Below, piece after piece: positions 7,944 through 39,418 of a stretch of DNA of 39,483 nucleotides; the stretch's first letter is position 1, and each line of letters opens with the position of its first letter. The DNA lies in IMG/VR virus record IMGVR_UViG_3300042946_001699, positions 1 through 39,483 of that record. One strand, written 5' to 3'. The notes beneath the pieces are model-generated. The model was not told where the DNA came from. It did no database searches and saw only the letters and a program-made list of their open reading frames with translations. The position numbers and the translations under genes are program-made. Source of the DNA: a virus.

Positions 7944-9395
7944 TCAAAGCGTACTGCTGTTTGCCTTGTTGTGCTGCCTTGCAGCCCACACATGCCTGGC
8001 CCAGCCGGACTTGTAGCCGCGTTCCTGCTCTCGCTCCAGCAGCTGCTCGAAGGTGCGGCAGCCGGCTGCCGGGTGCGTACGGCGTGGCCGGGCCTGCTGG
8101 AGCTGGGGGCGGTGCCGATCCGACCCGCTGATCTCGACCAGTTCACCCTCAAGCAGTTGGAGCCCACGGCGCTGCTCATCGCGGTCCTCTGCAAGAAACA
8201 GGTGGCCGCAGTCGGGGCAGACCTGTGCGGCACTGGGGCAGCTGCAGAAGCAGACTGGGCAGTCCTTGATCGGAATCGAGACGCCCTCCCGGCGGCGGCG
8301 GCCAGCCAGGTTCCACGCGCGCTCATCGGTGGGCAGGCCATGGCGATGGGCATTGCCGACGTGATCGAGGATCACCGCCTCCTGCTTGCCCTGTGCGGGA
8401 CGCAGGGCCCGGCCGACCATCTGCAGATAGAGCGACAAGGAAGCGGTTGGGCGCATCAGGATCGCGCCGCCCACTGAGGGGATGTCGGTGCCCTCGGAAA
8501 TGATCATGCAGCTGGTGAGCACCTCCACCTCCCCGGTGCCGAGCCCGGCGATCAAGCGTTTGCGCTCCTCTGCTGACGTGCCGCCGCTCACTGACGCGGC
8601 CCTGATCCCCGCAGCGCGGAAGGCGCGAGCCATCTGTTCGGCGTGCTCGATCGTGCAGCAAAAGCAGATGGCCGTGCCGGGGTGCAGCCGGCGGCGGTAG
8701 TGCGACACCGCATCACCGATCGCGGCCCGATCCCCGAAGGCGCGCGCCGCCTGCTCCAAGTCGTACTCGCCCATCCGCTGGTGGAGTTCGGGACCCTGCC
8801 CCTTGCTGTTCCTGGCACCTGGCCAGGAGAAGACCTTGGGTCTGGCCAGCCAGCCCTGCTCCACCAGCCAGGCCGCAGAGGGCCCCAGCACCAGGGCTTC
8901 GAAAAAGCCGCCGGCCTCTACGCCCAACCCTTTGCCATCGAGGCGTTCGGGCGTGGCGGTCTTGCCGATCAGATGCGCCTCTGGCCAGGTGTTGATGATC
9001 CGGCCCCAGATGTTGCCTGCCACCAGGTGATGGGCCTCGTCCTGAATGATCAGATCCGGCGCTGACAGCTGCCCCAGCCGCCGGGCCACGGTCTGCACCG
9101 AGCCAACCGCCACCTGCCGGCCCTGCAGCCGGTGGCCGGGGGCGACCACATCGGGCTCGAGCCCCCAGGCCCGAACGGTGCCCATTAGCTGCTCGATCAG
9201 CTCGGCCCGGTGGGCCAGCACCAGCACCTTCCTGCCCTTGAGGGCAGCGCCGCGGGCGATGGCGCCGATGGTCTGGCCTTTGCCCGCGCCGGTGGGCATG
9301 ACGGCACAGACCCGCCGGTGGACCTTGAGGGCCGCTCGGAGATCGGCCAGCAACTGCAGCTGGTAGTCACGCAGAACGATTGACGGCATTGGCAC
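7944..9395 (-). CDS. Superfamily 2 DEAD/DEAH-type helicase with zinc-binding tail
   Basis: This 483-residue protein has the N-terminal motif RDYQLQLLADLR, Walker A MPTGAGKGQT (33-42), the DEAH box (119-122, QDEAHH), TATPER (146-151) and motif VI QMVGRALRP. A Cys cluster (CPVCFCSCPSAAQVCPDCGH) at about 370-390 would bind zinc, and a basic C-terminal region follows. The layout is that of phage SF2 helicases that unwind recombination or replication intermediates, paired here with VRR-NUC, ERF-like and SSB-like genes downstream. An alternative start lies two codons in (MPSIVLRD). It is the first gene of the minus-strand early operon. Confidence 0.92.
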   Translation of the reverse strand: MPMPSIVLRDYQLQLLADLRAALKVHRRVCAVMPTGAGKGQTIGAIARGAALKGRKVLVLAHRAELIEQLMGTVRAWGLEPDVVAPGHRLQGRQVAVGSVQTVARRLGQLSAPDLIIQDEAHHLVAGNIWGRIINTWPEAHLIGKTATPERLDGKGLGVEAGGFFEALVLGPSAAWLVEQGWLARPKVFSWPGARNSKGQGPELHQRMGEYDLEQAARAFGDRAAIGDAVSHYRRRLHPGTAICFCCTIEHAEQMARAFRAAGIRAASVSGGTSAEERKRLIAGLGTGEVEVLTSCMIISEGTDIPSVGGAILMRPTASLSLYLQMVGRALRPAQGKQEAVILDHVGNAHRHGLPTDERAWNLAGRRRREGVSIPIKDCPVCFCSCPSAAQVCPDCGHLFLAEDRDEQRRGLQLLEGELVEISGSDRHRPQLQQARPRRTHPAAGCRTFEQLLEREQERGYKSGWARHVWAARQHNKANSSTL

Positions 9396-25925: not shown

Positions 25926-26144
25926 ATGACCAATCCCCAGCTCACCGAGAACTTGCTCGCCGTGATCCGCAGCCTGCCGGCTGACGATCGCCGCTGGCTG
26001 CTCAGGCAGCTGGAGCTGGACAACAGTGACCTGAGTCACGGTGCCCTGGCTGAGATGGCCATGGCCGGGGGAGCCTTTGACGACCTGGCCGCTGAACCTG
26101 ACCTCTACAGCTTCTCCGACGGAGAAGCGATCGTTGCCGGCTGA
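25926..26144 (+). CDS. Antitoxin of MazF/PemK-type pair
   Basis: This 72-residue acidic protein begins MTNPQLTENLLAVIRSLPAD and continues DRRWLLRQLEL, a short helical antitoxin type common beside PemK/MazF genes in cyanobacteria. Its stop overlaps the toxin ATG by one base (TGATG at 26142-26146). It has no clear DNA-binding domain. I use ATG 25926 rather than an in-frame start at 25908. Confidence 0.8.
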   Translation: MTNPQLTENLLAVIRSLPADDRRWLLRQLELDNSDLSHGALAEMAMAGGAFDDLAAEPDLYSFSDGEAIVAG

Positions 26145-26491
26145 TGCTCAGCCGCTACGACATTGTGCTTGTCGCCTTCCCTTTCACGGATGGGCCGGCG
26201 GCCAAGCCTCGGCCGGCTTTGGTGATCACCACCAGTGATCGCCATGGGGATGTGCTGCTGGCCTTCATCAGCTCCAACATCAGCGGCCCAACAGCCAGCG
26301 ATGAGCTCGACATCCCAGCCGAACATCCAGGCTTCTCAGGCACCGGCCTGAAGGTGAGCTCAAGGCTGCGGCTCAGCCGCATGACAACGCTGGCCATGCC
26401 ACTGGTGAAACGGCGCATCGGACTGCTGCCGCTGGCCTTGCAGACGAACTGCCAGCAGGTGCTGCAGCGGGTGATCGGCGGCCAAGGCTGA
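26144..26491 (+). CDS. MazF/PemK-family mRNA interferase toxin
   Basis: This 115-residue protein has the MazF/PemK barrel signature: RYDIVLVAFPFTDGPAAKPR, then PALVIT, VLLAFISSNI, the conserved helix region and SRMTTLAMPLVKRRIGLLP. It would cut single-stranded mRNA at short motifs. It directly follows its antitoxin with a one-base overlap, is on the same strand as the capsid genes, and lies just before the major capsid gene. Confidence 0.9.
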   Translation: MLSRYDIVLVAFPFTDGPAAKPRPALVITTSDRHGDVLLAFISSNISGPTASDELDIPAEHPGFSGTGLKVSSRLRLSRMTTLAMPLVKRRIGLLPLALQTNCQQVLQRVIGGQG

Positions 26492-26567: not shown

Positions 26568-27500
26568 ATGGGCCTCACCCTGATCGAGGCAGCCAAATAC
26601 GAGCACCGGCTTGAGCACCTCGCTGTGCTCAAGACCTTCTCGGAGGGCGAACTGCTCGCCCGGCTGCCGTTCATGAACATCGCCGGCAGCGGCCTCTTCT
26701 ATTCCGCCGAGCAGGAACTGCCTTCGGTGGGCTTCCGCGCCGTGAACGAGGGCTACACCCAGAGCTACGGCGTGGTGGACCAGCGCGCAGAAGCGGTGCA
26801 CCTCTTCGGCGGTGACGTGGATGTGGACCGCTCGATCGTGGACCTGATGGGCCCGGAAGCCCGGGCCAGCCAGATCGAGATGAAGGTGCGCTCAATGCGG
26901 CTCACCTTGGAAGCGACCGTGATCAACGGCGACACCGCCAGCAACCCCCGCGCCTTTGACGGCCTAAGCAAGCGGCTGCCGCCCGGCAATCCGATGGCGA
27001 TCAACAACACCGCCGGTGCCATCCCCGGTGCACCACTGAACTTCGATCGGCTCGATGAGCTGATCGATTCGGTGAATGCCTATGGCGGCAGCAAGGTGCT
27101 GGTGATGAGCAAGGCGATGCGCCGCCAGCTCAATGCCCTCGCCCGCGCCTCCATCGGCGGTGGTGTGTACCAGACCAGCACCAACTCCTACGGGATGACG
27201 GTGCATCGCTACCAGGACTGCGACATCCTCACCGTCGACCGCGATGCCCAGGGCGTCGAGGTGATGGGCTACGACGAGGCGGGCGGCACCAGCTCGATCT
27301 ACTGCTGCACCTTTGGTGATCAGGGCGTGACCGGCCTGCAGGGCCCGTTCCAGGGCCGCTACGGCATCTCGGTGCGGGACCTAGGCGAGGTGCCCGATGC
27401 CCCGGTGTTCCGCACCCGCGTGGATTGGTACGTGGGCTTTGCCGTGCTGCAGCCCCGCGCCGCCGGCCGTCTGTTCAACATCACCCCCGCTGGGGCCTGA
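26568..27500 (+). CDS. Major capsid protein
   Basis: This 310-residue protein shows the major capsid family pattern ARLPFMNIAGSGLFYSAEQE, LPSVGFRAVNEGYTQSYGVV and the VHLFGGDVDVDRSIVDLMG strand, then a RLTLEATVINGDTASNPRAF loop and VLVMSKAMRRQLN. It is expected to form the HK97-fold shell. It lies after the scaffold and before small head genes. The length is normal for the family, with no N-terminal protease or delta domain, consistent with a separate scaffold. The start at ATG 26568 directly precedes the conserved N-terminal helix. Confidence 0.9.
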   Translation: MGLTLIEAAKYEHRLEHLAVLKTFSEGELLARLPFMNIAGSGLFYSAEQELPSVGFRAVNEGYTQSYGVVDQRAEAVHLFGGDVDVDRSIVDLMGPEARASQIEMKVRSMRLTLEATVINGDTASNPRAFDGLSKRLPPGNPMAINNTAGAIPGAPLNFDRLDELIDSVNAYGGSKVLVMSKAMRRQLNALARASIGGGVYQTSTNSYGMTVHRYQDCDILTVDRDAQGVEVMGYDEAGGTSSIYCCTFGDQGVTGLQGPFQGRYGISVRDLGEVPDAPVFRTRVDWYVGFAVLQPRAAGRLFNITPAGA

Positions 27501-28454: not shown

Positions 28455-29264
28455 ATGAGCTCTTCTCCCACGCCGAGTGCACCGCCCGGTGCGACACGCA
28501 CCCCGGCCATCAGCAGCAGCGGCATCAGCGCCCAGCTGATCCGCCTGCTGCAGCCAACCGGCTGCCCGGGCCATCCGCTCTGGGTGCCACCGAATGAGGT
28601 GCTGCGCTGGGAGCAACTCGGTTTTTCCAGGGCCCCAGTGCCTGCGGATGCGCTGGAGCTGAGCTGGCTGCCGGCGCCAACCGCAGACGGTGATCCAGCG
28701 GAAGCCGCGGCTCTGGAGCTGGTGCTCAATCCACGCCAGACGCCGCCCGCTGCGGTGACGGTGGACTGGGGGGATGGCTGCATCGAGACCTGCCCATGGC
28801 AGGGCAGCGACGGCAACGCCCGCGCGCGCCACACCTATGACACCCGAACCGACTACACGATTACGGCAGAACTGAGCGGTAGCGGCATCAGCGCAACGCT
28901 GCTGGTGAGCCTCGCGGGCTGCCCGATCTGGCAGCCGGATCCACCACCACTGCCGCCACGGCCGCCTGGTGAGCTGCAGCCGTTGATCCCAGGGCCTGGC
29001 CTGGCTGGTGTGCCCTACGACGGCAGCCGCTCGCAGCAGTGGAGCCTGCGCCGTTGGAGTGGCGGCGACAGCGCCGGCGGTGTGCCGCCAAGCGATGGCT
29101 CCAGCAGCAGCTTCCTGCGGGCTGATGGGCTCTGGGCCATTCCGCCCGGCAGCGGCAGCCGCTGGTGGAGCGGCGACGGGCCGCCTGGTGATCTGCTGCA
29201 GGCCAAGACAGGGGACTACTACCTCGATGGCCGCAGCGGCGACTTCTACGTGCTGGAGGCCTGA
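28455..29264 (+). CDS. Structural protein with PKD-like domain
   Basis: This 269-residue protein has a disordered N-terminus. A PKD-like beta sandwich at about 95-140 has the tell-tale AAVTVDWGDGCIETC, then RHTYDTRTDYTITAEL. After a Pro-rich hinge (PPPLPPRPPGEL) comes a Gly/Ser/Trp-rich C-terminus ending GDYYLDGRSGDFYVLEA. The end resembles the C-terminus of the collagen-like protein ([16 protein letters not shown]) encoded at 31072-31632. It is probably a virion surface or tail protein, as PKD-like folds often bind polysaccharide or partner proteins. Confidence 0.7.
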   Translation: MSSSPTPSAPPGATRTPAISSSGISAQLIRLLQPTGCPGHPLWVPPNEVLRWEQLGFSRAPVPADALELSWLPAPTADGDPAEAAALELVLNPRQTPPAAVTVDWGDGCIETCPWQGSDGNARARHTYDTRTDYTITAELSGSGISATLLVSLAGCPIWQPDPPPLPPRPPGELQPLIPGPGLAGVPYDGSRSQQWSLRRWSGGDSAGGVPPSDGSSSSFLRADGLWAIPPGSGSRWWSGDGPPGDLLQAKTGDYYLDGRSGDFYVLEA

Positions 29265-29267
29265 GCG

Positions 29268-30302
29268 ATGCCCTGGAGCAAGACCCAGAACATCACCGGC
29301 CCGCAGGGGCCACAGGGCCCCCAGGGCCTGCAGGCCCTCAGCAGGCCTGTCTTCCACCCCGGCTCGCTGTTCACCAAAACCAGTGCCACCTCGCTCAGCA
29401 TCGCGGCCGGCTCAGGGCTCAACGGCATCCGCTACCCCGCACCAGCGGCGGTGACGATGCCGGGCAGCTTCTCCAACAACACCGACTACGCCATCTGGCA
29501 GCACCCCACCACCGGCGCCCTTGTCGCCGATGCCAGCTTCCTCACCGCGCCTGCTGGCGCCAGCGGCGGCGCAATCGTTGGCGGCTTCCATTTCATCCCC
29601 ACTGGCCGGCCGACAGGCTTCAACAACGGCAGCCCCACAGCAACCGCCGAGATCCTGGAGTTCAGCATCTGGGATCGGACCTACCGGCCCAGCTGCCCAG
29701 ATCCACGCGGCATGGCCTGCATCAACGATGCCTTCTGGATTGACCTCTACCTGGCTGGCTCCACCAGCTATGCCAGCGGCGCCCTCTCGGCCGTACCCAG
29801 CAGCACGTTCGGGCTCACCATTGCCGACCACCGCAACCCACCGCTGGTGCCTGCTCGCTACGGCGGTGACGGAACCCTCACCTACGGCAGCTTCTCCTGG
29901 TACGAGGCCTCTGAGCTGGCTGCCAGCTTTGGCAAGCGACTGCCCTCCTACGGCGAGTTTGCCGCTGCTGCCTTTGGCGCCCCTGAGCAAACCAGCCGTG
30001 GCAGCGATCCGGGCATGGTGATCTGGGAGCGGGTCAGCGTCTTTGGCCTGGCCCAGGCCACGGGTGTGCAGTGGCAGTGGGGTGCTGACCTCGCAGGAAA
30101 CGGCTCTGGTGGTGAGTGGAGTGCCACCACCGAGGGCCGAGGCAGCGTTTACTCAACCGATGCACGCGCCCTACGCCTCGGGGGCGACTACTTCTACGCA
30201 GCCAACTGCGGCTCTCGCTGCGGCTGGTGGGATTTCGTTCCCTGGAACTCCTACGACAACATGGCGGCGCGGTTTGTCGCCGCGCACCTGGTCTTTGGCT
30301 AG
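29268..30302 (+). CDS. Tail/adhesin protein with DGR-type C-type-lectin variable domain
   Basis: This 344-residue protein starts with a conserved leader (MPWSKTQNITGP) and a short collagen-like run ([12 protein letters not shown]). A beta-rich body follows. The last 150 residues have a C-type-lectin/sulfatase-like fold: FSWYEASELAASFGKRLPSY, then VQWQWGADLAG and GGEWSATTEGRGSVYS. The final segment (about 296-344) contains ARALRLGGDYFYAANCGSRC, GWWDFVPWNSYDNMAARF and AAHLVFG. This is the layout of variable repeats in diversity-generating retroelement targets, including many NNC/NNT codons at likely exposed positions. No reverse transcriptase or template repeat is in the window. It presumably binds a host receptor. 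Confidence 0.8.
   Translation: MPWSKTQNITGPQGPQGPQGLQALSRPVFHPGSLFTKTSATSLSIAAGSGLNGIRYPAPAAVTMPGSFSNNTDYAIWQHPTTGALVADASFLTAPAGASGGAIVGGFHFIPTGRPTGFNNGSPTATAEILEFSIWDRTYRPSCPDPRGMACINDAFWIDLYLAGSTSYASGALSAVPSSTFGLTIADHRNPPLVPARYGGDGTLTYGSFSWYEASELAASFGKRLPSYGEFAAAAFGAPEQTSRGSDPGMVIWERVSVFGLAQATGVQWQWGADLAGNGSGGEWSATTEGRGSVYSTDARALRLGGDYFYAANCGSRCGWWDFVPWNSYDNMAARFVAAHLVFG
30160..30299 (+). repeat. Candidate DGR variable repeat (VR)
   Basis: The last 140 coding bases of the lectin-domain gene look like a VR. From GGC at 30183 on, the codons GAC, TAC, TTC, TAC, AAC, TGC, GGC, CGC, GAT, TTC, TCC, TAC, GAC and AAC share a C or T third base and could all derive from AAY codons by A mutagenesis. 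They alternate with fixed GGC, TGG and CCC codons. The window has no second, near-identical copy (TR), so the boundaries are approximate. Confidence 0.55.
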
Positions 30303-30314
30303 CTAGTCACCGCC

Positions 30315-31046
30315 ATGCCCTGGACCAAGACCCAGAACATCGCCGGCCCCACGGCTGTTGCCACCGCCACCAGGCTGGGCGGCGTCAAGATCGGCAGCGG
30401 TCTTGTCATCACCGCTGATGGCACATTGAGCACCGCCGCCGCCAGCGGCACCTACCTCGACAAACGGGGTGATGCGATGAGCGGCCCCTTGCGCTTCTCG
30501 CCGGTTGCATCACCGTCCACATTCAATGGTGTTGATGCTTACCTCTATCACCACAGCGGCAACAAAAACCTCTACCTGCAGATGCCGGGTGGGCGGGTCT
30601 TCGTGTTCGGCGCTGATGGCACGCTCAACACCTCAGCCGTGCCCACCTCTGGTTCGCACCTGACCACCAAGACCTACGTGGATGCGGCGATTGCCGCAAT
30701 CCCGTCGCCTGACCTCAGCGGTTACCTCCAGCGCGCTGGTGGTGCGATGACGGGCCCACTGCGCTTTACCGCGCTCACCACACCGCCTTCCACCTACAAC
30801 GGCAGCGATTTCTACGCCTTCCAGAGCGGCGGCAACCTGATGTTCCGCACCCCAGATGGCAGCGCGGTGCAGCTGAATGGCAATGGCACCGTGACTGCAG
30901 CACCGCCGACGGCCGCGCAGCACCTGCTGCGCAGGGACTACGCCGACGGCCGTTACGCCCCCATGGCGCTCGCCGATGAGGTGAGCGTGCTGCGTGCTGA
31001 GCTCGATGGGCTGCGCGACCTGGTGAGCGCACTGGCTCGGCAATAG
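30315..31046 (+). CDS. Phage fibre protein with two internal repeats
   Basis: This 243-residue protein opens with the same leader as the preceding gene (MPWTKTQNIAGP). It continues with a phage-fibre type strand repeat (LGGVKIGSGLVITADGTLST). Two tandem units follow at about 47-124 and 137-217: MSGPLRFSPVASPSTFNGVD and MTGPLRFTALTTPPSTYNGS, each ending in a K/RxYVD-like or RDYADG segment. It closes with a trimeric coiled-coil-like C-terminus (VSVLRAELDGLRDLVSALAR). It is probably a receptor-binding or side fibre sharing an attachment site with the lectin-domain protein, an alternative or companion adhesin. Confidence 0.78.
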   Translation: MPWTKTQNIAGPTAVATATRLGGVKIGSGLVITADGTLSTAAASGTYLDKRGDAMSGPLRFSPVASPSTFNGVDAYLYHHSGNKNLYLQMPGGRVFVFGADGTLNTSAVPTSGSHLTTKTYVDAAIAAIPSPDLSGYLQRAGGAMTGPLRFTALTTPPSTYNGSDFYAFQSGGNLMFRTPDGSAVQLNGNGTVTAAPPTAAQHLLRRDYADGRYAPMALADEVSVLRAELDGLRDLVSALARQ

Positions 31047-31071
31047 CTGGTGACGACAGCGCGTGCTGACG

Positions 31072-31632
31072 ATGGGTTGGGTTGCATCTGGTTCTCTCAA
31101 GGGCCCTCAGGGTGAGGTCGGCGCCCAAGGCCCTCAGGGTGTGCAGGGGCTACCCGGTGCTGATGGGGCACCGGGAGCACAGGGACCGGAAGGTCCTGCT
31201 GGTGCACAAGGCCCTGCCGGCCCAGACGGCATCCAGGGCCCGCAGGGCATCCAGGGTGCCCCAGGCCTGGGGATCACCTTCCGCGGCCAGGTGCCCACCA
31301 CCGCGGATCTGCCCGCCGATGCCGCCCAGGGCGATGCCTACATCGTGCAAGCGGATGACTCCTTCCGCGTCTGGGACGCCACCAGCAGCACCTGGGTGGA
31401 TGGGGGTTCGATCCAGGGACCCCAAGGCATCGCCGGCCCACAGGGACCTCAAGGCCTGCAGGGAGAGCCCGGCCCCCAGGGCCTGCAGGGGGTGGAGGGC
31501 CCTGCCGGGCCCCAGGGCAACCGCGGCACCGGCTGGTTCACCGGCAGTGGCGCACCCACAACCGTGCCCGGCTCAGTGCCGGGTGATCTGTATCTGGATC
31601 AAACCAGCGGCGATGTGTACGTGTTGAGCTGA
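31072..31632 (+). CDS. Collagen-like tail fibre protein
   Basis: This 186-residue protein has two Gly-x-y tracts at about 9-67 and 115-155 (for example [15 protein letters not shown]). They flank a small domain ([20 protein letters not shown], then [17 protein letters not shown]) seen in many phage collagen-like proteins. The C-terminus is [16 protein letters not shown]. The Gly-x-y tracts should trimerise into a stiff rod. I prefer ATG 31072; a GTG three codons upstream (31063) is possible. It is the last of the structural genes. Confidence 0.8.
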
Positions 31633-32784: not shown

Positions 32785-33120
32785 CGGCAGGACGGCGGAG
32801 AACCCCACCCCCAGCGGCCGGCCGCAGCGCCGTGACAAGGACGCCCCCCTGGGGGCGCCTGGCCCGATCCTTGACGCGGCGTGAGGACTGGCCGAGGGAT
32901 CCGGTGGGTGTGCGCCGGTCCCGGTGGCAATCCGCTCCCCAGCCCCTGTTTCGACAGCCCCTCAGCGACCAAAGCAGGCAGGCATCCAGCCCGTCAGCTA
33001 CTCCGAAGCAGCATTTCAATGCACCTTGCGCATAGTTTTCCTTGTTCGCATGAGCAATAAATCAGACACAGCCCACTAGCCATAGGCTCCAGCCGTCAAA
33101 CGCTCACGGAGACTGGCTTC
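32785..33120. promoter_or_regulatory. 336-base gap between sigma gene and BREX operon
   Basis: No convincing gene is seen. Near the sigma side, CGCCCCC/GGGGGCG (32840-32855 region) forms a GC-rich hairpin nested within CAAGGA/TCCTTG arms. The last 120 bases turn AT-rich (about 33010-33070, with TTGCGC, AGTTTTCC and CAATAAAT stretches), where the BREX promoter should lie, but no clear -10/-35 pair stands out. GGAG at 33108-33111 is a good ribosome site for brxA. This stretch is also the most likely seam between phage-like genes and the defence operon. Confidence 0.45.
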
Positions 33121-33969
33121 TTGGCTGACGCTTTGCCCTGCGCGGTGCCAGGATTCGCCAGGCGCTGCCAGCTGGTTTCCTTGCCCCGTCCCATCCCGCA
33201 GCCGTCCCGCTACTGCCTCAGCTTCACGGCGGCAGGGCTCAGGCCTGAGCTGGCGGCTGTGATCGCGGCCATCCACCTGGAGGGAGAGGGGGACTGGGCC
33301 CGCACCAAAGCGGCGGTGCTGGAGCGCAATGCCCTGCAAGCCCGTTCAGCCAGCTCGGGCAAACGGCTTGAGTCGGAGCTGCGGCAGCGGCTTCAGGGCC
33401 TCACCATCCCCCAGTTGCAGCTGCTGGCGCGGGGTACGAGCGAGGAGCGCAGTGCCATGGCCTGGCTGGCGGTGCTCAAGCGCATCCAGATCGCAGCCGA
33501 CCTGAGCAGGGATCTGCTGCTGGAGAAGCTCGGCAGTCTGGATCCGGTGCTGCGTCGCTCGGACATGGCGGCCTTCTATGAGGACCGTGAGCGCGATCAC
33601 CCCGAGCTGGCGGCTCTAGCACCCTCATCCCAGCAGAAGGTGCGATCAGCGCTGCTGCAGATGCTCCGAGATGCTGGGCTTCTGGCCGGCAAGGCGGGCA
33701 AGGGCGGAACCCTTGGCACGGTGCAGCGACCGCTCCTCTCGCCGCAGGTGCAGGAGCTGGTGGTTAGCGACGATCCAGCGCTGCTGGTTGGATTCCTGGC
33801 CCACAGACAGGCCACCCCCACCAAAAGCCGGAGCGCGTCTACCGCGGCGAAGGCATCTCCCAGGACAACGGCAAAACCTGGACCCAGGTCTGCAGCCAAG
33901 CCCGCAGCCAAGGTGTCCACCAAGCCTGCAGCCAAGAAAGCTGCCCCGGCCCCGAGGGCAAAACCGTGA
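33121..33969 (+). CDS. brxA: BREX protein BrxA with basic C-terminal tail
   Basis: This 282-residue protein matches the BrxA (DUF1819) pattern: RYCLSFTAAGLRPELAAVIA, then EGEGDWARTKAAVLERNALQ, ARSASSGKRLESELRQRLQG and LTIPQLQLLARGTSEERSAM. A WLAVLKRIQIAADLSRDLLL helix follows, and then the HPELAALAPSSQQKVRSALL winged-helix part. BrxA is a small DNA-binding BREX component. The last 50 residues are an unusual Lys/Ala/Pro-rich tail with repeated AKP, like histone H1 tails. Start is TTG 33121, 9 bases after GGAG; GTG 33145 is an alternative. The stop overlaps brxB. Confidence 0.9.
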   Translation: MADALPCAVPGFARRCQLVSLPRPIPQPSRYCLSFTAAGLRPELAAVIAAIHLEGEGDWARTKAAVLERNALQARSASSGKRLESELRQRLQGLTIPQLQLLARGTSEERSAMAWLAVLKRIQIAADLSRDLLLEKLGSLDPVLRRSDMAAFYEDRERDHPELAALAPSSQQKVRSALLQMLRDAGLLAGKAGKGGTLGTVQRPLLSPQVQELVVSDDPALLVGFLAHRQATPTKSRSASTAAKASPRTTAKPGPRSAAKPAAKVSTKPAAKKAAPAPRAKP

Positions 33970-34577
33970 GCAGCGTCAGCGGCCTCGACAAGCGCTTGCA
34001 GGAGGTGCTCACCCGCCCCGATTTCCTGGAGATGCGGGGAGTGGCCAAGGAGGTGCCGATCTTCATTCAGACCTACAGCCCCGCCGATGAAGACCAGCTG
34101 CGGGTGGTGGTTAAGGGAGCTGAACAGTTCCTGCGCAAGCAGGGCCTGCGGGTGAAGCAGGTGGATCTGTTTGAACTGGTGCTGCAGCTGCTGGAGGCCA
34201 AGGGATATCTGGATGTGGTGCTGCAGGAGGAGCCGAGCTGGAGCAAGAGCGACCTGTTTGACACCCTGCAGAACGTGGCCGAACCCACAGCAGCGTTGGT
34301 GCCAAAGCTGATGGAGGCGCTGGGCGATGACACCCAGATCAGCCTGATCACTGGTTCAGGCCGGGTGTATCCGTTCCTGCGCACCCACACGATCCTGGAA
34401 GCGCTGCAGCCAGCAATGGTGCGCCACCCGGTGGTGCTCTTCTTTCCCGGCGAGTACTCCCAGGACGCCGACGGCGGCTCCTACCTGCGCCTGTTTGGCA
34501 CCACGACTGCCAGCAAGATCGAAAACCCGCATTACCGCGCCACCAACCTCGACTACTTCGACACCAAGAGCTCATGA
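33966..34577 (+). CDS. brxB: BREX protein BrxB
   Basis: This 203-residue protein matches BrxB (DUF1788): PDFLEMRGVAKEVPIFIQTY, YSPADEDQLRVVVKGAEQFL, LLEAKGYLDVVLQEEPSWSK, VYPFLRTHTILEALQPAMVR and HPVVLFFPGEYSQDADGGSY near the end. Its biochemical role within BREX is not settled. GTG 33966 overlaps the brxA stop by four bases (GTGA), and its own stop overlaps brxC by four (ATGA), so the three genes are translationally coupled. Confidence 0.93.
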   Translation: MSSVSGLDKRLQEVLTRPDFLEMRGVAKEVPIFIQTYSPADEDQLRVVVKGAEQFLRKQGLRVKQVDLFELVLQLLEAKGYLDVVLQEEPSWSKSDLFDTLQNVAEPTAALVPKLMEALGDDTQISLITGSGRVYPFLRTHTILEALQPAMVRHPVVLFFPGEYSQDADGGSYLRLFGTTTASKIENPHYRATNLDYFDTKSS

Positions 34578-37500
34578 CTGCCACCACCATCCAAGAGCTC
34601 TTCTTCAAGCCGGTTGATCGCCCAATCGATGGGGTGATCAAGGCCGATGACGAGCGGCATCTGCAGGTCGAGCTCGATGAGTACGTGATCACTCGGGAGG
34701 TGAGCAAGGGCCTGGGTGCCTTCATCGATGCCTACCTGCACAACCCCACCGCCAATGGCGTGTGGATCTCGGGGTTCTTTGGCTCGGGCAAGTCGCACCT
34801 GCTGAAGATGCTCTCGCTGATGCTAGATGGCGACAAGCGCGTCTCTTCCGAACAGCCTGGCGAGCAGAGCAAACGGCCGGTTGAGATCCTGCTGCCAAAG
34901 GTGGAGGACGAAATCCTCCGCGCCGATCTCAAGAAGGCCACTGCGATCCCGGCGCGCAGCCTGCTGTTCAACATCGACCAAAAGTTCGATGGCATCGGCG
35001 GCACCCACGAGGCACCGATCCTCGAGGTGTTCATGAAGGTGCTCAACGAACTGCAGGGCTATTACGGCAACCAGGGCTATGTGGCCCAGTTCGAGCACGA
35101 CCTCAACAAGCGCGGCCAGTTCGAGGCCTTTAAGCAGACCTACGAGCGGATCAACGGCCGCAGCTGGGATAACGACCGTGATGCGCTGGCCACGGTGACC
35201 AAGCGCAGCTTCGCGAAGGCCTATGCCGAACAGTTCGGCGGCAGCGAAGACGACGCCATCAAGGTGATCAATGACGCCAAGGACAGCTACCGCCTTTCAA
35301 TCGAGGGCTTCGCTGGCCGGGTCAAGGAGTACCTAGCTAGTCAGCCGCCGGGCTTCCGGCTCAACTTCTTTGTCGATGAAGCCGGCCAGTTCATCGGCCA
35401 AGAACGCAGCCGCCTGCTCAACCTGCAGACCGTGGTGGAGAGCCTGGCGAGCGCCACTGATGGGCGGGCCACCGTGTTCATCACCTCCCAGGCCGACCTG
35501 GAGGGAATCCTCGGCCAGGTGAAGTTTGAGCAGGCCGACGACCTGAGCAAGATCCAGGGCCGCTTCAAGACCAAGCTCACCCTGGCCAGCGCCGATGTGC
35601 AGGAGGTGATCCAGCGGCGGCTGCTGGCCAAGACCCCGGACGAACCGGAGCAGCTGATCAATATTTATGAGCAGGAGAGGGAGAACTTCACCACCCTGTT
35701 TCGCTTCAGTGATGGCTCAATTCAGCTCAAGGGTTGGGGCGACTGCCAGAGCTTCTGCGGTCTTTATCCCTTCCATCCCTACCAGCTGAGCCTGTTCCAA
35801 CAGGCGATCCAGAGCCTGGCGACCCACAGCATTTTTGAGGGCCGCAACATGGCGGTGGGCGAGCGCTCAATGCTCTCGGTGTTTCAGCAGGTAGCGATGG
35901 CCATCAAGGAGCTGCCGGTGGGCCGGCTGGCCAGCTTTGACCAGCTTTATGACGGCATCAATGAGGTGATCCGAGGCGATAAGAAGCAGACGATGGTGAC
36001 CGCCCAAAACCAGGTGGGCGAGCTGGAGCTGCGCATCCTCAAGGCGCTGTTCCTTTTGAAGTGGGTGCCCCAGTTCAAGAGCACGGCGCGCAACATCGCC
36101 ATCTTGTTAATCAGTGAGCCCAGCTTCGATATCCGCGCCCATGAGCAGGCGGTGAAAGATGCCCTGATCAACCTGGAGAGCCAGAGCTACCTGCAGCGCA
36201 GCGGCGAGATCTACGAGTTCCTCACCGATAAGGAAAAGGATGTCGAGCAGGAGATCAAGCGCACCGAGGTGTCGGATTCAGAAGTGATCAAGGCGCTGCA
36301 CCGGATCGTGTTTGACGACGTGCTGCAAAGCAACAAAATCCGTTTTGCCGACAACGGCAACGACTACTCCTTTGCCCAGAAGATCGACGACGGCTTGATC
36401 AAGGGCAAAGAGGGCGATGTGGTGGTGAACCTGGTGACCCCAGAGCACCCCAACTACGGCAGCGAGGCGATACTGCACAGCCGCAACATGGGTGGCACCG
36501 AACTGATGGCGGTGCTGCCGGGCAAGGAGCGGCTGCTCGATCAGATCCGCAGCCAGCTCAAAACCGACCTCTACATCCGCCAGAACAGCGGCAGCGAAGA
36601 CGAAACCCTCAACGCCATCTTGGCGATCCGGGCCAAGCAGAACGGCAGCCGCCGCCAGGAGATCACCCGGCTAGCGGAAGAGCAACTGCGCCTGGCCGTG
36701 CTGGTGGTGAATGGCCAGACCCTCTCGGTGGGAGAAGGCGATCCCAAGACCCGTTTCAGCAAGGCCTACCAGGAGCTGATCCGCTCGGCCTTCCCCAAGC
36801 TGAAGATGGTGCACGGGGTATTCAATGAGACCACCGTGGCGGCGGTGGTGCGCGACCAGGACGACCTGCTCGATGGCCTGGCGGTGCAGCTGTCAGAGGC
36901 AGAGCAGGAAGTGCTGGTGGAGGTGGAAAGGAGCAAAAATCAAGCCGAGCGGCTGAGCGCAGAAGCGCTGGTGCGCAAGTTTGAGGGGCGCCCCTATGGC
37001 TGGAGCAACTGGGCCACCCTCACCTTTATTGCGCGGCTTTACCGGCTCGGAAAGCTGGAGCTGCGGGAGAAGGAGCTGCTCAGCAGCGTGGAGGTGATCG
37101 AGGCACTTACCAACAGCCGCAAGCTGGGCGGCGTGAGCGTGCGCAAGCAGGAGGTGTACGACACCAGCACGGTGAATGCACTGAAGCGCTTCCACCAGGA
37201 GCTGTTCAACACGCAGAGCCTGGGCACCGATGCCCGCAGCACCTGCGAAGCGTTCCGCATGGCGATGGCAGAAGAAGCCCAGGACTTGCGGGAGATCGCA
37301 GCCCAAGCCGCCAGCTACCCCTTCCTGGCAGCAGTGAAGCCCTGGGCCGAGCAGGCCGAGGCGATGGCCAAAAAGGACGACGGCTACCTGCTCAACCAGC
37401 TGGACAGCTTCAAGGCCAGCTGGCTGGATGCGGAAGAAGACCTGATCACTCCCCTGAAGCAGTTCCTAAAAGGCAACCAGAAAACGGTGTACGACGAGGT

Positions 37501-38074
37501 GCGGGCCTTTGAACTGCGCTACGGCGATGAGTTCGCCGACCTGCCGGCCGAACAAGTGAGGCCGCTGCGAATGCTGCTGGAGAGCGACAAACCCTATGCC
37601 GGCGGCCTGATCCCCCAGGCCAAAAACTCGATAGCCGAGCTGCAGAAGCAGCTGGGCGAGCGGCTGGCTGAGGCCAAGGCCAGGGCGCTGGAGGAGATCA
37701 GCGAGCAGGAAGCCCGGCTGAAGGCCACGGTCGACTTCCAGAAGCTCGACACCAGCCAACAGGAGCAGGTGCTGGCAGCAACGGCCTCGGCCAAGGCTGA
37801 TGTGGATGCTGCCACCCAGCCCGGGCGGGCCTTGCTGCGAGTGAACCGCTACCGCGCCGAGGAGGTGCCCAAGCAGCTGCAACGCATGGCGGCGCTGGCA
37901 GCCCCGGCAGACACACCAACAGCTGCGCCCATCAAGGTGGTAGCGGCGTCAGCCCTGAAGGTGAACTGCCCGCTGAGCCAGATCACCAACAGCCAGGAGC
38001 TGCACGAGTGGCTCGATGCCCTACGGGCTTCGGCTCAAGCAGAGCTTGAGCAGGGCCATCGGATCAGTCTCTGA
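34574..38074 (+). CDS. brxC: BREX P-loop ATPase BrxC
   Basis: This 1166-residue protein is full length for BrxC. It opens MTATTIQELFFKPVDRPIDG and has Walker A WISGFFGSGKSHLLKMLS (about 64-81, Lys73). A Walker B-type NFFVDEAGQFIGQERSRLLN (about 264-283) and the helical ATPase lid follow. Charged coiled coils fill the C-terminal third (KNSIAELQKQLGERLAEAKA, RALEEISEQEARLKA). It is the large AAA-like ATPase required for BREX defence and self-methylation. It overlaps brxB (ATGA), ends 48 bases before pglX, and appears intact. Confidence 0.95.
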   Translation: MTATTIQELFFKPVDRPIDGVIKADDERHLQVELDEYVITREVSKGLGAFIDAYLHNPTANGVWISGFFGSGKSHLLKMLSLMLDGDKRVSSEQPGEQSKRPVEILLPKVEDEILRADLKKATAIPARSLLFNIDQKFDGIGGTHEAPILEVFMKVLNELQGYYGNQGYVAQFEHDLNKRGQFEAFKQTYERINGRSWDNDRDALATVTKRSFAKAYAEQFGGSEDDAIKVINDAKDSYRLSIEGFAGRVKEYLASQPPGFRLNFFVDEAGQFIGQERSRLLNLQTVVESLASATDGRATVFITSQADLEGILGQVKFEQADDLSKIQGRFKTKLTLASADVQEVIQRRLLAKTPDEPEQLINIYEQERENFTTLFRFSDGSIQLKGWGDCQSFCGLYPFHPYQLSLFQQAIQSLATHSIFEGRNMAVGERSMLSVFQQVAMAIKELPVGRLASFDQLYDGINEVIRGDKKQTMVTAQNQVGELELRILKALFLLKWVPQFKSTARNIAILLISEPSFDIRAHEQAVKDALINLESQSYLQRSGEIYEFLTDKEKDVEQEIKRTEVSDSEVIKALHRIVFDDVLQSNKIRFADNGNDYSFAQKIDDGLIKGKEGDVVVNLVTPEHPNYGSEAILHSRNMGGTELMAVLPGKERLLDQIRSQLKTDLYIRQNSGSEDETLNAILAIRAKQNGSRRQEITRLAEEQLRLAVLVVNGQTLSVGEGDPKTRFSKAYQELIRSAFPKLKMVHGVFNETTVAAVVRDQDDLLDGLAVQLSEAEQEVLVEVERSKNQAERLSAEALVRKFEGRPYGWSNWATLTFIARLYRLGKLELREKELLSSVEVIEALTNSRKLGGVSVRKQEVYDTSTVNALKRFHQELFNTQSLGTDARSTCEAFRMAMAEEAQDLREIAAQAASYPFLAAVKPWAEQAEAMAKKDDGYLLNQLDSFKASWLDAEEDLITPLKQFLKGNQKTVYDEVRAFELRYGDEFADLPAEQVRPLRMLLESDKPYAGGLIPQAKNSIAELQKQLGERLAEAKARALEEISEQEARLKATVDFQKLDTSQQEQVLAATASAKADVDAATQPGRALLRVNRYRAEEVPKQLQRMAALAAPADTPTAAPIKVVAASALKVNCPLSQITNSQELHEWLDALRASAQAELEQGHRISL

Positions 38075-38122
38075 ACCCTTCCCTCTCTTTTTCCATTCGT
38101 TTCCCAGACCCACAGCTGATCC

Positions 38123-39418
38123 ATGGCCGTCAACACCGCTGCCCTGAAGACGTTTGCCCCGGCGATGCGCCGGCAGCTGCTGGAGGCGGTGGGCCGCAAG
38201 CTGGATCTGCTGCTGCACAGCCAGACCCCCGACACGCTGAGCACCTACGCCAAGCAGATCGCCGAGCTACGCGAGCAGGAAGAGGAGAACCGCGAACAGC
38301 TGCTGGAGCGGGTGGCTTACACCTGGTTCAACCGGCTCTGCGCTCTGCGCTATCTCGATGCTCGGAGCTGGCACCCATTTGGCTGCAAGGTGTTGATGCC
38401 GGCGGCAGAAAGTGAAACCCAGCCGGAGCTGCTGAAGTTGATGCGGGCCGGGAGCCTGCCAGCGGAGCTCAATGTCCACACCAACGAAGCCCGCCTGCAT
38501 GGGCTGCTCGATGGCCAAATCCCGCCGGTGATCGCGGGTGCAGATCCGCAAGGCGAGGTCTATCGCGAGCTGGTTCTGGCCAGTTCCCGCTCGTATCACC
38601 AGCTGCTGCCTGAGCTGTTTGAAGGGCTAGATGACGCCAGCGAGTTGCTGTTGCCAGACGACCTGCTGAGTGAAGGCTCGATCGCTGGTGGTTTCCGCAG
38701 CGCGATCAGCGACGAGGACTGCGAGGATGTGGAGATCATTGGCTGGCTGTACCAGTTTTACATCTCTGAAAAAAAAGATCAGGTCATCGGCAAGGTTGTC
38801 AAAAGCGAAGACATCCCTGCTGCCACACAGCTCTTCACGCCTAACTGGATCGTGAAGTATATGGTGCAGAACTCACTCGGCGCCACCTGGCTAGCCACCT
38901 ATCCAGACAGCCCACTCAAGGGCCAGATGGAGTTCTACATCGAACCAGCCGAGCAAACCCCTGAAGTTCAGGTCCAGCTGGCAGCGATCACACCAGAGAG
39001 CCTCGATCCAGAAGAACTCACCCTGATCGATCCAGCATGTGGCTCGGGGCACATTTTGGTGGAGGCTTACGGCCTGCTGAAGGCAATCTACCTAGAGCGT
39101 GGCTACCGCCAACGAGATATCCCTGAGCTGATTCTCGGCAAGAACCTGTTTGGTCTTGACATTTGCCCACGTGCGGTGCAGATGGCTTCCTTTTCTTTGC
39201 TGATGAAGGGGCGCGAAGATGATCGGCGATTGCTTGAACGTGATATCAATCCAAATATCACAGGGATGCTCAACAGCGAAGGAGTAGACGCTGAAAGATT
39301 GGCCACCGCTTTCAACCTTTCGGACTACGGCTTAAACCGGCCTGACCTCGTGGAGCGTACCCGTTCAGGGGTCGAAACGCCCCGGCGCAGGACTACACGC
39401 CTGATTGCTCATCGCTGA
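38123..39418 (+). pseudogene. pglX: BREX adenine methyltransferase PglX, truncated
   Basis: The first about 410 residues match PglX/BrxX closely: AYTWFNRLCALRYLDARSW, VEIIGWLYQFYISEKKD, KSEDIPAATQLFTPNWIVKY, EFYIEPAEQTPEVQVQLAAI. The SAM-binding motif DPACGSGHI (from residue 303) is followed by GLDICPRAVQMASFSLLMK. Around residue 410 (after NRPDLVE, base about 39355) the match stops and the frame ends 21 codons later in Arg-rich sequence. PglX is normally about 1200 residues; the catalytic NPPY motif and the target-recognition part are missing. Either an insertion splits the gene or the operon is broken here. As it stands the product could bind SAM but not methylate DNA. Confidence 0.85.

Follow-up and report, generated by a model that had tools for sequence, protein, structure and literature searches.

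The window analysed here is the whole of a 39,483-base IMG/VR record. A tRNA-Arg gene lies near its left end (436-511) and is followed by an integrase gene (638-1948). The window also encodes a primase-like protein, a large terminase, a portal, a scaffold and a major capsid protein of the epsilon15 GP7 type (26568..27500, + strand), which was identified by profile and phage matches and served as the query for the prophage lineage. This capsid protein shares 98-99% identity with prophage-encoded proteins from genomes of Cyanobium and Synechococcus, which bears out the picocyanobacterial origin proposed by the first-pass annotation. A gene for a MazF-like growth inhibitor (26144-26491) is located between the scaffold and capsid genes and is 97-99% identical in the related prophage records L072 and L073. 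The fibre genes are followed by BREX genes at 33121-39418 (brxA, brxB, brxC and the first part of a pglX-like methylase gene). The right end of the record falls inside a BREX gene, the DNA beyond it being outside the data, and no attR in the form of a copy of the tRNA-Arg end was found within the window. Since no attR precedes brxA and the setting is similar in L112, whose brxA is 99% identical, the BREX block may be cargo of the element. An imperfect direct repeat (551-581 / 33109-33137; 84% over 31 bases, E 0.003) has one copy just past the tRNA-Arg gene and the other just ahead of brxA. It may mark a former attachment site or the insertion of the BREX block, or have arisen by chance.

The gene of interest (29268..30302, + strand) encodes a 344 aa protein that is, judged by its sequence, a homologue of the tail receptor-binding protein Mtd and more than a lectin-like protein, here orphaned of its diversity-generating retroelement (DGR). 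The assignment relies on the ORF and on Pfam, PHROG, phmmer and phage matches. The C-terminal motif from which a C-type-lectin variable region had initially been proposed is present, and the resemblance goes far beyond chance. The second Mtd domain (Pfam PF21916, mtd_2nd) is recognized at residues 34-136 (29367..29675, + strand; E 5.9e-18), residues 34-343 match solved Mtd structures in phmmer (1yu3, E 5e-51, 310 residues), and PHROG 11262 matches the ORF at E 5e-114. Homology therefore spans the Mtd domains, including the C-terminal lectin variable region (VR). The best matches among annotated phages are the mtd genes of S-CBS3 (72%) and S-CBS1 (60%), and the next are those of the Bordetella phages BIP-1, BMP-1 and BPP-1 (37-38% identity). 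The Mtd of BPP-1 is the founding DGR target and the textbook example of a self-diversifying adhesin. The window shares with BPP-1 the homologous residues 34-343, the C-terminal lectin VR and the position among tail genes, and its capsid protein matches the epsilon15 GP7 family. It differs by having no brt, avd, template repeat or hairpin, and by an N-terminus that consists of a collagen-like anchor instead. One of the phage matches, L069, is an engineered T7 record carrying a chimeric T7 gp17-Mtd tail fibre, a laboratory construct and not a natural relative. An AlphaFold monomer of the window Mtd (32 sequences) has a mean pLDDT of 42, too low to be informative on the fold. As part of the overall explanation, which we regard as probable, the product would be an Mtd-type receptor-binding protein with a C-type-lectin fold, carried at the tail, binding a receptor and presumably trimeric.

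This gene occupies a slot among fibre genes. The upstream boundary is a conserved fibre/adaptor gene (28455..29264, + strand; 33-68% identical in related prophages) and the downstream boundary is a collagen-like fibre gene (31063..31632, + strand; up to 89% identical in related prophages). A second fibre gene (30315..31046, + strand) lies between them, immediately after mtd. Scans for the upstream fibre gene and for the second fibre gene gave no confirmed relatives and only weak relatives, respectively. The first 25 residues of the window protein (29268..29342, + strand) comprise an N-terminal anchor, MPWSKTQNITGP, and a short collagen-like stub. The slot genes of related prophages begin with a similar anchor, and the second fibre gene with the same one (MPWTKTQNIAGP). 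The fibre genes at the slot have in common an N-terminal motif resembling MxWxxxxN(L/I)xGP, which occurs in a more relaxed version in 57 loci. The proposal that the stub mounts the adhesin is supported by this anchor common to neighbouring fibre genes. Nearly all foreign Mtd matches start at residue 26, directly past the anchor. These sequences are most simply read as a chimera in which an Mtd acquired from elsewhere sits on the mount native to the lineage. Related prophages have other proteins at this position, namely a 155-aa protein (L112), a collagen plus Lcl_C-like protein (L075) or a 436-aa Mtd (L043, IMGVR_UViG_3300042503_002857). The latter belongs to the same prophage lineage (capsid 95%), carries its Mtd in the same slot behind the same anchor (MPWSKTQNI) and, like the window, is without RT (reverse transcriptase) and hairpin. 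However, its collagen stub is longer, it keeps the small gene that follows the RT in DGR phages, and its Mtd is only about 54% identical to that of the window and comes from another branch. A DGR-born domain would have entered a lineage in which adhesin cassettes are swapped while the anchor stays the same.

Mtd proteins about 50-76% identical to that of the window are found on 45 viral contigs (46 loci), and 22 of these contigs carry an RT above the Pfam cut-off. The RT of L001 includes the DGR motif LPIGALTSQ and YMDD. In the RT-bearing relatives examined, the cassette is ordered mtd, hairpin, Avd, template repeat, RT, with a bAvd protein (PF22296) between VR and template. In the 20 loci aligned, of which L019 and L020 represent a single contig, the distance from the VR to the template repeat downstream is about 557-573 bp. 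Over the VR core, these loci differ from their own templates at 7-21 adenines and at only 0-3 of the 71-79 other positions. Two near-identical pairs that keep the hairpin differ mainly in the VR: L012 and L013 are 99.6% identical in the body (3 differences) and show 20 differences over 90 in the VR, while L002 and L003 show 3 and 8 (of 90), respectively. From such comparisons the DGRs of the relatives look active. The hairpin is found directly 3' of the mtd stop in each of the 21 RT-bearing loci whose 3' end could be read. Its stem is GGCGC or GGCCC and its loop GNCA, and the two arms of the stem vary together from locus to locus, which supports pairing. These cyanophage hairpins (10961-10985 in L002, same place in other loci) have 5-bp perfect stems and loops that include GCCA and GTCA. 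They are shorter and looser than the hairpins with 7-10 bp stems and GRNA loops described for other phage DGRs.

The nearest sequence relatives of the window Mtd part (70-74% identity) are Mtd-DGR contigs of IMG/VR such as L002 and L019, which carry the full hairpin-Avd-TR-RT cassette, unlike the window. The capsid search found no Mtd-DGR contig, which suggests that these relatives have a different phage backbone. That no RT, accessory protein or template repeat is visible in the window, as first noted, was confirmed by searches of the record: neither an RT nor an Avd is present in the 39,483 bases, although the same search detects Avd in intact relatives, and no template repeat was identified, the best 40-mer having 7 non-adenine mismatches. 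The gap after the mtd stop (30303..30314, + strand), where DGR-bearing relatives carry the GGCGC/GGCCC hairpin with its GNCA loop, contains no such structure on sequence comparison. At the VR end, the equivalent of the IMH (30267..30281, + strand) is degenerate. It reads GCGCGGTTTGTCGCC where DGR-bearing relatives typically have GCGCGTTTTGCGGCC, 3 of the 15 bases being different. In BPP-1, efficient retrohoming needs both the IMH and the hairpin (PMC3240598). The parts of a functional DGR, namely an RT, an adenine-mismatched template, an Avd and an IMH with its hairpin, are thus lacking from the record or, in the case of the IMH, degenerate. Nor was an RT found in the 32 viral records that belong to the lineage of this prophage.

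In a tree built on the Mtd body without the VR, the window belongs to a well-supported (96/97, starred) set of 12 rows, 10 of which are RT-bearing. This nested position indicates that the DGR was lost, although the window branch is long (0.42 versus a median of 0.067), which makes its detailed position uncertain. Searches for RT remnants by tblastn with true RTs reveal different degrees of erosion among the relatives. L011 keeps the hairpin and Avd with no template or RT on the contig, L022 the hairpin and the start of Avd, and L010 the hairpin, the start of Avd and the 3' end of the RT. L014 retains the hairpin, about 100 bp past it and the RT 3' end. What persists in S-CBS1 and S-CBS3 is the hairpin and about 45 residues from the end of the RT. 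In L018, L026, L028, L029, L039 and L043 only the sequence that follows the RT in intact cassettes is left, now located shortly after mtd, and the window keeps no remnant of the cassette. L012, L017 and L035 cannot be relied on as RT-less, since in each the contig breaks off no more than about 160 bp from mtd. The fully bare state corresponds to at least six changes on well-supported (starred) branches. It reads as repeated loss rather than gain, a direction that we infer from the sequences. The relatives can be arranged in a series of stages: intact, Avd kept, Avd and RT fragments, hairpin and RT stub, nothing. A direct repeat between the hairpin and the RT 3' end was considered as a cause of deletion and dropped, the longest shared word being at most 8 bases.

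The RT 3'-end remnants of S-CBS3 (L067, ~9002-9136) and S-CBS1 (L068, 8678-8812) are unannotated. They encode about 45 aa, the S-CBS1 remnant being 91% identical to the RT of L015, and they overlap and follow the hairpin behind mtd. Like the window, these picocyanobacterial phages carry an Mtd homologue (60% and 72% identity for S-CBS1 and S-CBS3) and have no intact RT. They differ in keeping the hairpin and the RT end straight after mtd, both absent from the window, and only their Mtd was matched among the window proteins compared. An orphan mtd in picocyanobacterial phages is thus already annotated, and greater interest attaches to the cassette slot and the series of losses. No description of such a series was found in the non-subscription papers searched.

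The VR equivalent (30168..30281, + strand) lies within the wider bounds initially assigned to it (30160-30302). Compared to the nearest known template repeat, that of L019, it differs at 16 of 28 adenines and at 12 of the 71 remaining bases (Fisher P = 1.3e-4), a contrast that could partly reflect selection on exposed residues, the L019 template being from another lineage. Four of the 18 codons normally fixed by the template are changed, versus 0-3 in RT-bearing loci set against foreign templates. In such comparisons the VRs of RT-bearing loci can likewise reach 14 non-adenine differences. Such differences are more numerous in the six loci without hairpin than in the eight RT-less loci that keep it (one-sided P = 0.007), a comparison confounded by distance from the template set. 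The first-pass annotation had relied on codons ending in C or T. These occupy 11 of the 12 template-Asn positions but 72% of the gene as a whole (P = 0.11), and so the argument is not significant by itself while the adenine-site contrast holds. This weakness is the one point in favour of a convergent lectin resemblance in a gene that never belonged to a DGR. We give that idea almost no credence, since both Mtd domains are homologous to those of DGR-bearing Mtds at 70-74% identity and the gene is nested within them. Nesting among DGR-bearing relatives, together with the excess of change at template-adenine positions, is what a former DGR target shows. The initial description as an orphan DGR target in a picocyanobacterial prophage is thereby upheld, the target being a true Mtd homologue. 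Close variants of the gene were found neither in viral contigs nor in 400 Cyanobiaceae genomes, adenine positions being left free, and a plasmid search gave no match.

Rewriting of the VR in trans could come from two sources. A DGR elsewhere in the host genome was one of the two fates originally offered, and cyanobacterial DGRs are known to have targets at a distance (PMC7517822). Relatives of the phage RT were detected in 13 of the 400 Cyanobiaceae genomes, with E values below 1e-20 in about 11 and with the DGR motif in nearly all. The IGNLxSQ DGR-type RTs occur in about 11 of these genomes, one of which (G082) also carries a close relative of the window prophage. Many of these loci (L185-L204) show a visible template/variable pair, which contrasts with a 2020 survey in which DGRs were reported absent from Synechococcus and Prochlorococcus (PMC7517822). 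However, most of the host-type templates that could be read specify another layout (GGSWNNNPRNCRSAYR), and against the window VR host-type loci have at least 14 non-adenine mismatches over 60 where the best phage templates have 6. The hairpin is missing and the IMH equivalent changed, both being needed for efficient BPP-1 homing (PMC3240598). The window Mtd was itself found in none of the 400 genomes, in a search without positive control. The mismatch of the Cyanobiaceae templates makes diversification by the host very improbable. With no RT in the record or the 32 lineage records, no template in the record and the cis elements missing or changed, the host-encoded fate is not supported and the frozen one is favoured.

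The second source would be a co-infecting cyanophage whose Mtd DGR occasionally supplies its template RNA and RT. Its best templates show the low mismatch just mentioned (6/60), and intact-looking Mtd DGRs are common on viral contigs. Nevertheless, the absence of the post-VR hairpin, the 3 of 15 altered IMH-equivalent bases and the four changed fixed codons leave this very unlikely, if slightly less so than a host DGR. Low-rate rewriting of the orphan VR by such phages has a similarly slim chance, between the two. If true, RT-free prophages would share a community pool of diversification.

The gene is constrained. Compared to L009, the Mtd body has dN 0.16 and dS 0.86, giving a dN/dS of about 0.19 against about 0.1 in RT-bearing pairs of similar dS, which indicates less constraint than in RT-bearing relatives. 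This rough doubling and the long branch are what a decaying, pseudogene-like remnant without a role in the virion would show, yet the ORF is intact, the invariant core residues are retained and the place between fibre genes is conserved. We therefore consider such decay unlikely, though less so than rewriting in trans. The term relic used at first is appropriate for a gene orphaned of its DGR but not for a dead one, as purifying selection persists.

With the DGR machinery and its landing marks gone, what remains is most probably an adhesin of fixed sequence, derived from a system that once diversified itself. In an ancestor, an Mtd-type DGR would have shaped the variable region, after which avd, the template repeat, the RT and the target-site hairpin would have been lost. 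The VR would now be fixed and subject to ordinary point mutation under purifying selection. In this prophage lineage, host range would more probably be changed by exchange of whole cassettes on the common N-terminal anchor with its collagen-like stub, the window Mtd being one such cassette. We infer loss of diversification, with cassette exchange as the main source of diversity, and consider it probable that the window gene encodes a receptor-binding protein of DGR origin, now frozen and exchanged as a unit. An Mtd in an RT-free prophage, together with the stages of loss seen in its relatives, makes it testable when a phage stops diversifying its receptor-binding protein and settles on a single version.
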